Shown here piece by piece: positions 7,137 through 11,634 of a stretch of 11,634 nt of DNA. Source of the stretch: Gallionella sp. (GTDB taxonomy: Bacteria > Pseudomonadota > Gammaproteobacteria > Burkholderiales > Gallionellaceae); the NCBI GenBank assembly GCA_004298605.1, contig SCPW01000043.1:1-11634 (forward strand), in the 5' to 3' direction. The notes below the pieces were generated by a model. That model searched no databases. It was not told where the DNA came from and worked only from the letters and a program-made list of their open reading frames with translations. How positions within the stretch are numbered: the stretch's first letter is position 1; each line of letters opens with the position of its first letter. The translations under genes were made by a program, and so were the position numbers.

Positions 7137-8426
7137 TTATGCCAACTCGACAACACGCCGCTTAGTCAAAGCTTTCCCGGCGGTTCTAAACAAATCTAGG
7201 ATAACCGCTGCAACGACGGGAACAGAAACGGAATTGCCGAATTGGCGGTACGCGTGAACATCTTCCGGGTGACAGTGGAAGGTATCAGGAAACCCCTGCA
7301 ATCTGGCACATTCTCGCGGCGTGATATGGCGAACCCTCCCGTTATGTGCCACACCGAGCTTGTGTGCATCGCTGGTAACCAAAGTAATCGAGATGCTTTG
7401 CGGGTCGAGGAACTTGAACACTTCAAACGACATGTTGCCGGAGACAGGGTTGTATTTTCCATCAACCTCTTTCAGGTAACCTTTTTGGGAAAGGCTTTCG
7501 ATAATCTTCGACAGGTTAGGGTGATTGAAAAACGTTTTGATCTGATCGAGCGTGAGCTTTTTGCCATCCTGATCCGCGCCGAAGTGTTTCTTGCGACGGT
7601 TGGCCACCAGCGCATTCATAAAATCCATTTCTTCCTGCGCGCATTCGCCCTTGATACCCAATTCCCAGGAATGGAGTGATTTGCCATTCCGGTGGTCGAT
7701 CATGCGATAGCCCGCAAGCGCTTCCGGGCCGCCCTTGATCTGGCGCAACAGGCTTTGCACGAACGCATCCGAACAATCATATTTTGCTGGCGGCGAATCC
7801 TCCAGAATATCTGCAACCACTTTGGTCTCAATCTCGTCGAACATCGAACGCTGCGCAAGTTGCTGTTTGAATTTGTGCGAGTCTGCCGCGCCAAGATCGG
7901 AATTGAGTGTCAATTTCGGCTGTTCGTTTTTGATGCCTACGATATAGACTCTAACCCGATTTTGAGGAACACCGAAGTTGGAGCTATTGAGGATGACATA
8001 AGAGACACCGTAGCCCAGCTTTTTCAAGTGTTCGAGTATGGTGTTGAAGGTTCTTCCATGATCGTGAGTAGTAAGGCCGCGCACGTTCTCAAGCAAAAAA
8101 CCTTGCGGTCGATGATCCCGCAAAAATCGCTCTATCTGAAAAAATAATGTGCCGCGCGTGTCGCCGAACCCTTTTTGCTTTCCCGCATATGAAAATGGCT
8201 GACAAGGAAAGCCCGCCAACAAAAAATCAAAATCAGGAACATCGGTAATTTGGTAAATATCGCCCTGCGGCTTCTCACCGAAGTTCAATGCGTAAGTCTC
8301 TTGCGCGTATTTGTCTATTTCTGATGAAAGAACGCACTGCGTCTGTATGCCCAACTCTCGTGTGGCTTGCTCAAAGCCAAGGCGTATCCCGCCTACTCCA
8401 GCAAACAAATCCACGAAACGTATCAT
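7137..8426 (-). CDS. C5-cytosine DNA methyltransferase of a Type II R-M system
   Basis: The enzyme transfers a methyl group from S-adenosylmethionine to carbon 5 of cytosine, protecting host DNA from the adjacent endonuclease. It has 429 residues from the chosen start. Canonical motifs appear in order: motif I FVDLFAGVGGIRLGF (4-18), motif IV GFPCQPFS with the catalytic C75, motif VI ENVRGL (113-118), motif VIII QNRVRVYIVGI (155-165), a long target-recognition region (about 170-360), motif IX RECARLQGFPDTF and motif X FGNSVSVPVV. A longer frame reaches 8492, but the ATG at 8426 gives the classic four-base ATGA overlap with the endonuclease stop and begins just before motif I, so I chose it. 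Recognition sequence cannot be read by eye. A+T content is visibly higher than in the flanking decarboxylase and dcd genes, a sign of acquisition. Confidence 0.95.
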   Translation of the reverse strand: MIRFVDLFAGVGGIRLGFEQATRELGIQTQCVLSSEIDKYAQETYALNFGEKPQGDIYQITDVPDFDFLLAGFPCQPFSYAGKQKGFGDTRGTLFFQIERFLRDHRPQGFLLENVRGLTTHDHGRTFNTILEHLKKLGYGVSYVILNSSNFGVPQNRVRVYIVGIKNEQPKLTLNSDLGAADSHKFKQQLAQRSMFDEIETKVVADILEDSPPAKYDCSDAFVQSLLRQIKGGPEALAGYRMIDHRNGKSLHSWELGIKGECAQEEMDFMNALVANRRKKHFGADQDGKKLTLDQIKTFFNHPNLSKIIESLSQKGYLKEVDGKYNPVSGNMSFEVFKFLDPQSISITLVTSDAHKLGVAHNGRVRHITPRECARLQGFPDTFHCHPEDVHAYRQFGNSVSVPVVAAVILDLFRTAGKALTKRRVVELA

Positions 8427-9460
8427 TGCAGCTTCTCTTTGATGAAAGCTGCCAGGATCGCGATTTCGTCCGCCGAATAAGCGATAGTGCAATCACTATA
8501 GCGACAGATTGTGCTGACCGCCGAAGAGCGCTGAAAATTGCCTGCACCGTCGATGACATATGCAATCCAATAGCCATCCTGGTGCATCGCTGCTTGCCTG
8601 CTTTCGGCCTGCCCCGCTTTGCGCTCGATCACACTATTGGTTGTTACTTGAAAAGTGACTTCTACACCAACCTTCTTTTTTCCCTTGACCACCACTACGT
8701 CGAACGGCATTCCTCCATCTTTATCGTAGTGAGACAAAACGATCTTTCCATTGCGCTCAATCGTGTACGCTTGCGGCAAATGCTGCGTCAAAATTTCCAC
8801 AACATAATCCTGCGCAATCTGCCCCAAGCTATTTGCGCTTGCTCCTGTGGTGATGCGGCTGACATTGATATAGCGCTCGCGCACGTATTTCGAAATTGCG
8901 GTTTCATCACCCAACAACGCACCAATTTCGCATTTCTCCAGCCCGGCCAAATGCGCGGCTTCAGATGTTGAGCCAAACATCAAAATCATCGCCATGTCCT
9001 GATAAAGCCCATCCATCCCAACTTCCTGAACTATTGCCGCCCCGTCAATTTTGAGTTTGGTATTGCCCAATCCACTAACTGGTAAGCGCTGAAAATCGTA
9101 GCGGTAAGATTTGCCCGCCATGATGAACTGCATAAAGTGGTGCTTGGTTTTCGGGTCAAGAGGGAACACATCGGCAAATTCTCTCCCCAATCGTTTAATC
9201 ATTTCCCCGCCGTAATCCGCCAACACGACAAGGTGTTTTAAAAATAGATTTGCCGGCATTTGAGAAGCCGCAAGCACATCGAATATTTGCGTGGGGGTTT
9301 TGCCTGAAATTTTCAGGATACTGATAAATTGCTCTTGGGTAGCAACCAAATTTGGGATGACACTTACTTCGGCGACTTGTTTTTCAAGCGCTTTAGGCCA
9401 CCACTTTTCAGCGTGGGATTCAAGCTCATGAATATTTCTGTTGAACTTAATCTTTGCCAT
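8423..9460 (-). CDS. Putative Type II restriction endonuclease
   Basis: This 345-residue protein is assigned by its position and a plausible nuclease core. It overlaps the cytosine methyltransferase by four bases (ATGA). Residues 248-271 read as a PD-(D/E)xK-like hairpin: D254 in GGMPFDVVVV, a short turn KGKKK, then GVEVTFQ with E267. The usual lysine two residues after the glutamate is replaced by T269, with Q271 and K281 as nearby candidates, so the catalytic centre may be a variant. The N-terminal part (about 1-200) is alpha-rich without a recognised domain and may carry DNA recognition. AGAGG six bases before the ATG is a good ribosome binding site. The enzyme should cut unmethylated DNA at the methyltransferase's target site. 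No methylation-specific or nicking function is indicated, though these cannot be excluded. Confidence 0.8.
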   Translation of the reverse strand: MAKIKFNRNIHELESHAEKWWPKALEKQVAEVSVIPNLVATQEQFISILKISGKTPTQIFDVLAASQMPANLFLKHLVVLADYGGEMIKRLGREFADVFPLDPKTKHHFMQFIMAGKSYRYDFQRLPVSGLGNTKLKIDGAAIVQEVGMDGLYQDMAMILMFGSTSEAAHLAGLEKCEIGALLGDETAISKYVRERYINVSRITTGASANSLGQIAQDYVVEILTQHLPQAYTIERNGKIVLSHYDKDGGMPFDVVVVKGKKKVGVEVTFQVTTNSVIERKAGQAESRQAAMHQDGYWIAYVIDGAGNFQRSSAVSTICRYSDCTIAYSADEIAILAAFIKEKLQ

Positions 9461-9748: not shown

Positions 9749-10315
9749 TTACATCTTGGGCAGAGTGACGCCGACCTGCCCCTGGTATTTCCCGCCACGG
9801 TCTTTGTATGACGTTTCGCAAATTTCGTCCGACTCGAAGAACAACACTTGCGCCACGCCCTCGTTGGCGTAAATCTTGGCGGGCAGCGGGGTGGTGTTGG
9901 AGAACTCCAGGGTGACATAACCTTCCCATTCCGGTTCGAACGGCGTGACGTTGACGATGATGCCGCAGCGCGCGTAGGTGGATTTGCCCAGGCACACGGT
10001 CAGCACGCTGCGCGGGATGCGGAAATATTCGACGGTGCGCGCCAGCGCAAAGGAGTTTGGCGGGATGATGCAATAGTCGGCGGTGACCTCGACGAAAGAA
10101 TTCGGGTCGAAGTTTTTCGGATCGACGATGGTGCTGTTGATATTGGTGAACAGCTTGAATTCGTTGGAACAGCGGATGTCGTAACCGTAGCTGGAAGTGC
10201 CGTAAGACACGATGCGCTTGCCGTCCTGCATTTTCACCTGATTCGGTTCGAACGGTTCGATCATGCCGTGCTGCTCCGCCATGCGGCGTATCCATTTGTC
10301 TGACTTGATGCTCAT
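9749..10315 (-). CDS. dcd: dCTP deaminase
   Basis: The enzyme deaminates dCTP to dUTP, feeding the dUTPase-thymidylate synthase route to dTTP. The 188-residue protein is full length and belongs to the trimeric dUTPase-like fold. Visible motifs are [12 protein letters not shown] (38-49), GKSTYARCG (110-118, with S112 and R116 of the active site), [18 protein letters not shown] (123-140) with the catalytic glutamate E137, and the C-terminal nucleotide-covering segment [11 protein letters not shown] (169-179). The extended N-terminus [19 protein letters not shown] is typical of betaproteobacterial Dcd and supports the ATG at 10315. No Shine-Dalgarno sequence precedes it. That ATG lies inside one copy of a 12-bp direct repeat bordering a repeat-rich insertion, so the original leader has been displaced by 127 bases and the promoter must lie within or beyond the insertion. 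Confidence 0.97.
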
Positions 10316-10449
10316 AAATTCAGGGAAGGGGGAAGGGGGAAGGGGGAAGGGTAAGAGCAGAGGGCCACAGCGCTGCGCTGAATTTACCCTTCTCCCTTCA
10401 CCCTTCTCCCTTCCCGCCTTTCCCCTTCCCGCTCCTCCTCATAAATTCA
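10311..10449. mobile_element. Small heptad-repeat insertion with 12-bp flanking direct repeats
   Basis: The perfect direct repeat CTCATAAATTCA occurs at 10311-10322 and 10438-10449, bracketing 115 bp. Inside, the left arm (10323-10354) is built of 7-bp GGAAGGG units and ends GGGTAA. The right arm (10384-10415) is nearly its reverse complement, built of heptads CCCTTCT/CCCTTCA. Between them lies a perfect palindrome CAGCGC-T-GCGCTG (10368-10380). A pyrimidine-rich stretch (10416-10437) completes the insertion. The direct repeats look like a target-site duplication. No coding sequence fits inside, so any mobility would be in trans. The left arm is G-rich enough for a quadruplex. Alternatives are slippage-expanded repeat DNA or a MITE. 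Confidence 0.7.
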
Positions 10450-10490
10450 AGGCCGCGATTTTAACCAATTCGCCGCCGGTGCGCGCGATT

Positions 10491-10499
10491 TGCTAAAAT
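10491..10499 (+). promoter_or_regulatory. Possible extended -10 promoter of metG
   Basis: TGCTAAAAT reads as an extended -10 box (TG-N-TAAAAT, five of six matches to TATAAT) 31 bases before the metG ATG. No -35 match is seen at the usual spacing. It lies outside the repeat insertion in the 215-base divergent gap between dcd and metG. No strong Shine-Dalgarno sequence precedes metG. Confidence 0.45.
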
Positions 10500-10530
10500 C
10501 TGCGCCTTTACAGCATTCCGGCAACTTTCC

Positions 10531-11634
10531 ATGGCTACCCGAAAAATCCTCGTCACCTCCGCATTGCCCTACGCCAACGGCAGCATCCACCTCGGCCATC
10601 TGGTGGAATATATCCAGACCGACATCTGGGTGCGCTTCCAAAAAATGATGGGGCACGAAATATATTATGTGTGCGCCGATGACACGCACGGTACACCCAT
10701 CATGCTGCGCGCGGAGAAGGAAGGCATCACCCCCGAGCAACTGATAGATCGCGTGTGGCACGAACACAAGGCGGATTTCGATGGCTTCCATGTGGCGTTC
10801 GACCACTACGGCAGCACCAACAGCGCGGAAACCAAAGAATACGCGCAGGGAATTTATCGCAAACTCAAGGCCGCCGGTTTAATCGAAGTGCGTGCCGTCG
10901 AACAGTTTTACGATCCGGTCAAAAACATGTTTTTACCGGATCGTTTCATCAAGGGCGAATGCCCGAAGTGCGGCGCCAAAGACCAGTACGGCGACAACTG
11001 CGAAGTCTGCGGCGCAGCCTACACTCCGGCGGAAGTGAAGAACCCCTATTCCGCCGTGTCCGGCGCCAGACCGGAGATGCGCGCTTCCGACCACCATTTC
11101 TTCAAACTCTCCGACCCGCGCTGCCAGGCCTTTCTGCGCGAATGGACGAAGAGCGGCACGCTGCAACCCGAAGCCGCGAACAAGATGCAGGAATGGCTGG
11201 GCGGCGAAGGCGAAAATAAACTCTCCGATTGGGACATCTCGCGCGATGCACCCTATTTCGGCTTCGAGATTCCCGGCGCGCCGGGCAAATATTTCTACGT
11301 CTGGCTGGATGCGCCGGTGGGCTATATGGGGAGCTTCAGGCAACTGTGCAATCAGAGGGCAGAGGACAGAGGACAGAGGACAGAAACTCCCTCTCCCCTC
11401 GCGGGAGAGGGCGTTCCAAACTTTGACGAATACTGGAAGGCCGACTCTAAAACCGAGCTATACCACTTCATCGGCAAAGACATCCTCTACTTCCACGCGC
11501 TGTTCTGGCCCGCGATGCTGCAAAACGCCGGTTTCCGCACCCCGACCAAACTGTTCGCGCACGGCTTCCTCACCGTCAACGGCGAGAAAATGAGCAAATC
11601 GCGCGGCACGTTCATCACTGCGGACAGTTACCTC
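10531..11634 (+). CDS. metG: Methionyl-tRNA synthetase, N-terminal part
   Basis: The enzyme charges tRNA-Met with methionine using ATP in the cytoplasm and is essential for initiation and elongation. The window holds the first 368 codons, all in one frame, and the gene runs off the right edge; full proteins of this type have about 550-700 residues. Class I signatures are intact: HLGH at 20-23 in [14 protein letters not shown], and KMSKS at 353-357. A zinc knuckle has C144, C147, C157 and C160. [13 protein letters not shown] (256-268) and [12 protein letters not shown] (311-322) are typical. Between LCNQR and FDEYW, about 16 extra residues (roughly 277-296, including [17 protein letters not shown]) replace a short linker of about eight seen in E. 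coli. These are encoded by repeat DNA inserted without breaking the frame. The protein probably still works, because the insert falls in a loop region. Confidence 0.96.
11353..11411 (+). repeat. Heptad repeat plus hairpin inserted in metG
   Basis: Four tandem CAGAGGA-type heptads (11353-11380, the first ending in G) and a partial fifth are followed by a hairpin with a perfect 9-bp stem CCCTCTCCC/GGGAGAGGG (11389-11397 and 11403-11411) and a five-base loop. In the metG frame this reads as the extra linker ending PSPLAGEG, a peptide that, from memory, appears in many spurious proteobacterial proteins because the CCCTCTCCC...GGGAGAGGG palindrome is a common dispersed repeat. No flanking direct repeat was found. 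Confidence 0.75.

Follow-up and report, generated by a model that had tools for sequence, protein, structure and literature searches.

At the dcd–metG boundary of a Gallionella sp. genome, a hairpin built from tandem 7-bp repeats is bracketed by a perfect 12-bp direct repeat, one copy of which contains the dcd start codon. The window, that is the whole analysed stretch of 11,634 nt, had received a first-pass annotation from its letters alone, in which this structure was read as a non-autonomous mobile repeat that duplicated its target on insertion and displaced the control DNA of dcd. The locus raises the question of whether the hairpin is a recent insertion or a part of the dcd leader with a role in translation. 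The reading favored here, at a probability of roughly 60%, is that the ribosome-binding site of the leader is split and that a heptamer hairpin, itself rewritten at a fast pace, bridges its two parts. On the comparisons below, the hairpin looks less like a new mobile-element insertion than like an RNA structure that is kept while its sequence is constantly rewritten.

Layout of the dcd–metG gap

The 215-bp gap between dcd and metG is resolved into its parts in Table 1. The geometry given by the first-pass annotation was recovered in full, including the two identical repeat copies, the two inverted heptamer arms, the central palindrome and the start codon inside the first copy. The copies lie 127 bp apart, start to start, with 115 bp (10323-10437) between them.

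Table 1. Features of the dcd–metG region, with positions in the window
Feature	Position	Strand	Basis or remark
dcd (dCTP deaminase), 188 aa	9749..10315	minus	ORF + Pfam PF22769, E 4.9e-37
12-bp direct repeat, proximal copy CTCATAAATTCA	10311..10322		sequence; contains dcd start codon
Arm 1, GGGAAGG x4.1 heptamer array	10323..10351		G-rich on + strand; 3' C-rich arm in dcd mRNA
Loop region (34 nt)	10352..10385		13-base palindrome CAGCGCTGCGCTG at 10368-10380
Arm 2, degenerate CCCTTCN (pyrimidine) heptamers	about 10386..10433		borders approximate; 5' G-rich arm in dcd mRNA
GAGGAGGAG, candidate Shine-Dalgarno (SD) sequence	10432..10440	minus	immediately 5' of hairpin
12-bp direct repeat, distal copy CTCATAAATTCA	10438..10449		identical to proximal copy
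metG (methionyl-tRNA synthetase)	10531..11634, continues past window end	+	ORF + Pfam; strand opposite to dcd

Complementarity is 91% for the best-matching pair of arm segments, which spans 32 nt, and 71% for a longer pairing of 42 nt. With at most 2 mismatches allowed, the window contains GGGAAGGGGGAAGGG 7 times vs 0.02 expected. As dcd-strand RNA, the 139 nt from repeat to repeat fold at -78.9 kcal/mol, an energy that none of 200 shuffles attained (shuffle mean -52.4, z -6.1). In this full fold the repeat copies pair with one another and the AUG is covered. Within the range of 20-170 nt upstream of the dcd ATG, GAGGAGGAG is the best anti-SD match (-12.3 kcal/mol), and it overlaps the distal repeat copy by 3 bases. 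Scans for terminator-like sites (10250-10560) and for promoters found none, and an Rfam covariance-model search of the window returned no matches at the gathering score.

The comparison of leaders indicates that the dcd start is shared with relatives through the N-terminus MSIKSD. An in-frame start farther upstream was rejected: although 41 more codons upstream are free of stops (229 aa in all), ATG, GTG and TTG are all missing from them, and MSIKSD is conserved. Among named records, Dcd comes closest to those of Nitrosomonadales MAGs (96-97%), followed at 95% by a Sideroxyarcus (Gallionellaceae) MAG and a Propionivibrio; from these records, "phylum" in the genome sets below is taken to mean Pseudomonadota. 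Elsewhere in the window, genes for a C5 cytosine methylase and a BanI-like restriction enzyme (Pfam) lie beside dcd at 7137-9460, their frames overlapping at 8423-8492. A RhuM-family gene and a ParE-like toxin gene, the latter preceded by a small gene, occupy 226-2117 upstream of folA.

The coding sequence of metG carries repeats of its own, in the form of an in-frame insert (11353-11411) that combines CAGAGGA heptamers (11353-11384) with a CCCTCTCCC..GGGAGAGGG palindrome (11389-11411). Relatives vary at this codon: some have no insert and others have different ones, some of these with palindromes; other heptamers found there are CAGGATT (L054) and GAGGATC (L060). By this comparison, the codon position is a fixed in-frame hot spot.

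The heptamer hairpin family and the 12-bp direct repeat

A search for copies of the element outside the window had been proposed, and such copies exist. With the 139 bp as query, the own genome gave 33 matches up to E 10, those with E<1e-3 lying on 12 contigs besides the window's own. When 21 of these own-genome loci were inspected by eye with their flanks, most proved to be hairpins with a G-arm, a short loop and a C-arm, and a few were single arms. The motif GGGAAGGGNGAAGGG is present in 28 of 37 genus genomes vs 0 of 24 other genomes of the order; across 76 genus genomes it occurs 0 to 58 times per genome, with 43 carrying it. A reversed-pattern control for these counts was uninformative, since a pattern so close to its own mirror image hardly changes on reversal. 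Another heptamer with several copies in the own genome is CAGAGGA, with 17 matches (up to 2 mismatches) on 8 contigs, that of the window included.

A detector for inverted tandem-arm pairs, in its second, gapped version, recorded 22 pairs of period 7 in G020 (348 kb), 2 each in G029 and G064 (400 kb each, unselected) and 0 in the control G040; the G020 contigs were picked for carrying the motif, so that their density is biased. At the other periods from 5 to 11 the detector returned 0, except for 1 at period 9 in G020. The first, ungapped version had given 19, 2, 0 and 0 for G020, G029, G064 and G040, with 2 at period 9 in G020.

The feature is an inverted heptameric repeat pair of the type of Rehm et al. 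(2015), with G-rich 7-bp units in two convergent arrays between genes. According to that paper, the GGGNATC repeats of Xanthomonas and Nostoc are dispersed, mostly between aligned genes near start or stop codons, with 70 and 75 inverted heptamer pairs in two Xanthomonas genomes and extensive length and sequence variation at shared positions. The paper gives their function as unknown, stresses G-quadruplexes and reports generally no association with mobile elements (PMC4692102). The suggestion that the repeat may be undescribed was accordingly half right, inverted heptamer pairs being already known from Xanthomonas. The present hairpins share with the described repeats their G-rich heptamers, dispersal, intergenic location, inverted pairing and variability at shared positions. 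They differ in that different heptamers occupy one site within one genus, in that hairpins stand between the dcd SD and ATG, and in that similar arms surround IVP genes (PMC4692102).

Heptamer hairpins as such range more widely than the genus. By eye, hairpins of other heptamers precede dcd in two Gallionellaceae records (L154 and L172) and in L071, which belongs to a different family of the order, with no clear SD before the arm. Among 69 usable named loci in a wider set of dcd leaders, 2 pass the detector, which misses by-eye cases such as L112, L154 and L172. A survey of 36 hairpins for nearby start and stop codons was too noisy to serve as more than a source of examples; some hairpins away from dcd have a good SD between arm and ATG. 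At one own-genome locus (L041, G000 C286 about 5783), GGGAAGG heptamers seem by eye to lie in frame within a reading frame, presumably that of a dehydrogenase component.

With regard to the 12-bp direct repeat, none of 20,000 single-base shuffles of two 40-bp border windows, which were chosen after the repeat was seen, reproduced it. The repeat is therefore not compositional chance, as had been argued from its length; whether it is a target-site duplication is a separate question. The expectation that other copies would carry long flanking duplications did not hold. In 55 deduplicated hairpins, border repeats of at least 6 bp numbered 6 vs 6.4 expected, counted within 25-bp borders beyond which the window's own repeat extends, leaving it uncounted. 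Repeats whose longest form was exactly 5 bp numbered 22 vs 15.0 expected under a permuted null, so that a shorter duplication is possible. For the 17 other dcd leaders with a hairpin, the longest repeat shared by the borders measures 3-5 bp, and among all 18 only the window genome has a long one.

Furthermore, each repeat copy is partly matched in relatives, and in different ones. The distal copy TTGAATTTATGAG corresponds to TTAAACTTATGAG in G003, where the proximal side reads GGAAGTTAACATG. The proximal copy CTGAATTTATGAG has the counterparts CTGAATTTTATGAG in G318 and CTGAATTTTTATGAG in G011, of the form CTGAATTTT(T)ATGAG, and the distal sides there differ. Each of these three leaders holds a partial counterpart of one copy and lacks the other. 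An ancestor with a single TGAATTTATGAG would be without a local SD, whereas 21 of the 22 leaders without a heptamer hairpin have one. The nearest hairpin-less related leader (G338) is 89% identical over 273 bp, and the exact empty site is absent from all hairpin-less dcd leaders read. By eye, AGC or part of it flanks the hairpin on both sides in five leaders (G012, G034, G333, G061 and G339; AAGC in three), which hints at a duplication of very few bases. A 12-bp target-site duplication was rejected on the lack of excess at 6 bp and above, the 3-5 bp repeats of the 17 leaders and the separate counterparts of each copy. This evidence appears strong but not final, and the 12-bp repeat would be a local peculiarity of the window genome.

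The hairpin between Shine-Dalgarno sequence and dcd start codon

Leaders of dcd were read in 40 of the 76 genus genomes, those for which loci were returned, and were divided by eye according to whether they carry a heptamer hairpin (18 leaders) or lack one (22); the SD segments were likewise picked by eye. In the 18 species, including that of the window, the hairpin fills the stretch from an SD-like purine core to the dcd ATG, and it is built from different heptamers. This holds alike for genomes with the dcd-metG arrangement and for those in which dcd adjoins a gene that we take to be mrp. Directly before the hairpin, GGAG was seen by eye in 17 of the 18 leaders and GAGGGG in one (G003).

The local anti-SD energy (positions -20 to -1) of the 18 hairpin-bearing leaders has a median of about 0.1 kcal/mol (range -4.1 to +2.7), and two of them (G003 and G004, about -4) match the weakest hairpin-less leaders. 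The 22 leaders without a heptamer hairpin have a median of about -5.9, with 21 of them between -4.0 and -9.9. Upstream anti-SD matches of -6.4 to -13.8 also occur in leaders without a heptamer hairpin. Such a match alone is consequently little proof, and it is the loss of the local SD that carries the weight. In one leader without heptamers (G023, L063), the local energy is +0.6, and GGAG is followed by a non-heptamer hairpin with no local SD after it; this leader possibly has the same split layout with another stem.

When the 18 leaders were folded with SD and AUG kept free, linear SD-ATG gaps of 62-199 nt (median 92) were reduced to 7-14 unpaired nt across one helix in 16, the misfits being G318 (gap 0) and G004 (gap 19). 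Dinucleotide shuffles of the gap gave one helix with 5-14 nt in 380 of 1800 cases (21%). Fold energies were 2.6-9.0 standard deviations lower than those of shuffles in 16 of the 18, with z -1.0 in G062 and -0.7 in G004. By computation, the arrangement is that of a split ribosome-binding site, with no usable SD by the AUG and an upstream SD brought close by structure.

In addition, the arms prefer their own partners. Own-arm pairing averages -35.2 kcal/mol vs -26.8 when arms are swapped between species, a value matched by 1 of 20,000 permutations, and the own partner ranks as the very best arm in 3 of the 18 leaders. By similarity of their 5' arms the leaders fall into 8 groups. On a dcd tree of 38 of the 40 leaders (16 with hairpin), the hairpin must have been gained or lost at least 9 times; well-supported branches require 4 of these changes, most inner branches are weak, and the species are related.

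The proposed explanation builds on the position of the hairpin, its pairing potential, the lost or weakened local SD, the different heptamers at one site and the own-arm preference. A long RNA hairpin with tandem-heptamer arms would separate the SD GAGGAGGAG (10440-10432 as read on the minus strand) from the dcd start codon. The claim that all upstream control DNA was pushed away is true of the linear sequence, in which the SD is 118 nt off, but not of the predicted fold, in which paired arms would leave it about 10 unpaired nt from the AUG. Arm pairing would in this way bring the SD close, and dcd may therefore keep a split but working ribosome-binding site. We infer that ribosomes use the distal SD. 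The hairpin position in the genus would be either long-lived or a recurrent target. The heptamer sequence probably turns over by tandem-repeat mutation, with both arms changing together and pairing kept; this mode of rewriting, too, is part of the model. As a counterpoint, RNase III could cut the 44-pair stem, which would part the SD from the AUG.

Split ribosome-binding sites are known from T4 genes 38 and 25, in which structure reduces the SD-AUG gap from 22 to 5 and from 27 to 11 nt (PMC3014915). The dcd leaders resemble these cases, as described there, in that RNA structure between SD and AUG gives a working distance, here by computation. They differ from them in their gaps (62-199 nt, compared with 27 nt in gene 25 and 22 nt in gene 38), in their tandem heptamer stems and in belonging to a cellular gene (PMC3014915).

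IVP genes and the rival explanations

Heptamer arms also accompany genes. In the own genome, GGGAAGG-type arms bracket a 23S_rRNA_IVP ORF (PF05635, E 9.2e-36) between dnaK and dnaJ; the element lies at G000 C158 5397-5822 (L022, L096), and dnaJ there is without a local SD. The window hairpin has no IVP/S23 ORF in its 34-nt loop and hence is not itself a 23S rRNA IVS/IVP element. PF05635 was matched in 27 of 41 genus genomes searched and in 44 of 249 genomes of the phylum (41 over the cut-off). The loci occupy recurrent gene gaps, which from their flanking reading frames we take to lie before guaA, folA, dnaJ and other genes. Among 27 genus loci, read out of 30, period-7 arms were detected upstream in 15, downstream in 23 and as an inverted pair in 14. 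The corresponding numbers for 29 phylum loci (L266-L294), which are best-scoring matches rather than a random sample and for some of which the reading frame taken may be wrong, are 17, 23 and 11. Periods 5, 6 and 8-11 gave 0 or 1, and the inverted-arm test failed in 13 of the 27 and 18 of the 29 loci. Strong complementarity (local scores 34-48) links the long GGCAGTA arms that surround IVP genes at L267, L270 and L274, loci from a different family of the phylum.

A tree of 54 IVP proteins places the sequences from the guaA, folA and dnaJ gaps in one group per gap (supports 95/85, 95/87 and 90/92). Rows labelled nuoD cluster with one unlabelled row, the grouping of the gltX rows is weak, and fcl rows appear in two places. 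Heptamers vary within one gap, with CCCCCTT-like and ACGTTTC-like types before dnaJ and four types before folA. Because the tree groups by gap and heptamers differ inside gaps, the ORF-bearing form in the genus seems mostly inherited in place while its arms change. A link between heptamer arms and IVP genes in gene gaps was not found in the titles and abstract openings of open-licence literature. The nearest case there is the Coxiella 23S IVS, in which terminal inverted repeats form a stem and GACAGAT heptamers precede the S23 ORF (PMC4990558). Compared with that description, the window element is likewise a stem of inverted repeats with heptamers, but is ORF-less and lies in an mRNA leader, and the IVP copies read here lie between protein genes (PMC4990558).

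These observations bear on several readings other than the split ribosome-binding site. A recent insertion of a MITE-like non-autonomous element at dcd, with its 12-bp target duplicated, is improbable. The multi-copy family, the hairpin-less relatives, the border repeat unexpected from composition, motif counts that vary within one genus as in lineage-specific spread and the slight excess of 5-bp border repeats speak for this reading, and of the earlier view the membership in a multi-copy family stands. The 12-bp duplication as a footprint of transposition is not supported: border repeats over the family are not of constant length, with no excess at 6 bp and above in the 55 hairpins. Moreover, the 17 other leaders have none longer than 5 bp, relatives carry a counterpart of only one copy, the implied empty site would be without an SD, and one site in 18 species holds hairpins of eight 5'-arm groups. 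REP/REPIN-RAYT systems and MITEs are small, dispersed, inverted-repeat and intergenic, as the present hairpins are; across this family, however, long border duplications are missing and the arms are tandem heptamers. Movement of a REP-like palindrome by a RAYT (Y1 transposase) is very improbable. Y1 transposase matches do occur in 63 of 76 genus genomes, but over the 76 genomes their number is not correlated with that of the GGGAAGG motif, the one heptamer compared (rho 0.16, p 0.16), and G020, the richest in motifs, has one weak match (E 9.3e-5). The tandem arms are also unlike a REP, a single palindrome of 20-40 bp.

On the reading as pure local slippage, slippage of the polymerase would lengthen the arrays and template switching would perfect a chance palindrome, the hairpin having no part in translation; this reading is unlikely. 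It fits the excess of inverted tandem-arm pairs at period 7 alone and the variation of arm length and unit at one site, and polymerase slippage is hypothesized by Rehm et al. as the source of the bacterial heptamer excess (PMC4692102). It leaves unexplained the placement between SD and ATG in 18 leaders, the lost or weakened local SDs, the own-arm pairing and the recurrence of one heptamer type at many sites in one genome. A further reading, doubtful but compatible with a split ribosome-binding site, takes the dcd hairpin as an ORF-less relative of IVP elements. These would be heptamer-arm hairpins with an S23 gene in the loop that sit in mRNA gene gaps as IVSs do in 23S rRNA, their arms being RNase III targets on which the IVP protein may act. 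The arms around the dnaK-dnaJ IVP gene, the inverted pairs confined largely to period 7 and the Coxiella heptamers speak for this kinship. Against it stand the loci that failed the inverted-arm test and the tree by gene gap, from which the ORF-bearing form seems to move rarely. Copy number of IVP as the driver of the GGGAAGG motif was rejected (rho 0.06, p 0.69, 41 genomes), and G005 and G018 have at least 10 motifs with no IVP match.

A broader view is tentative, and its probability is put clearly below even. Heptamer-arm hairpins with or without an IVP gene might form one phylum-wide class of intervening RNA elements, in mRNA gaps and occasionally in 23S rRNA. The hairpin would be fixed at its site while both arms are rewritten together and continually, and some host genes, dcd among them, would depend on it as a split-site bridge.

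Altogether, heptamer repeats, noted in bacteria as abundant and unexplained, would gain a testable role as bridges of split ribosome-binding sites. The 18 dcd leaders provide a natural series in which different stems apparently do one job. Furthermore, heptamer arms are tied to the IVP protein family by association across several families of the phylum.
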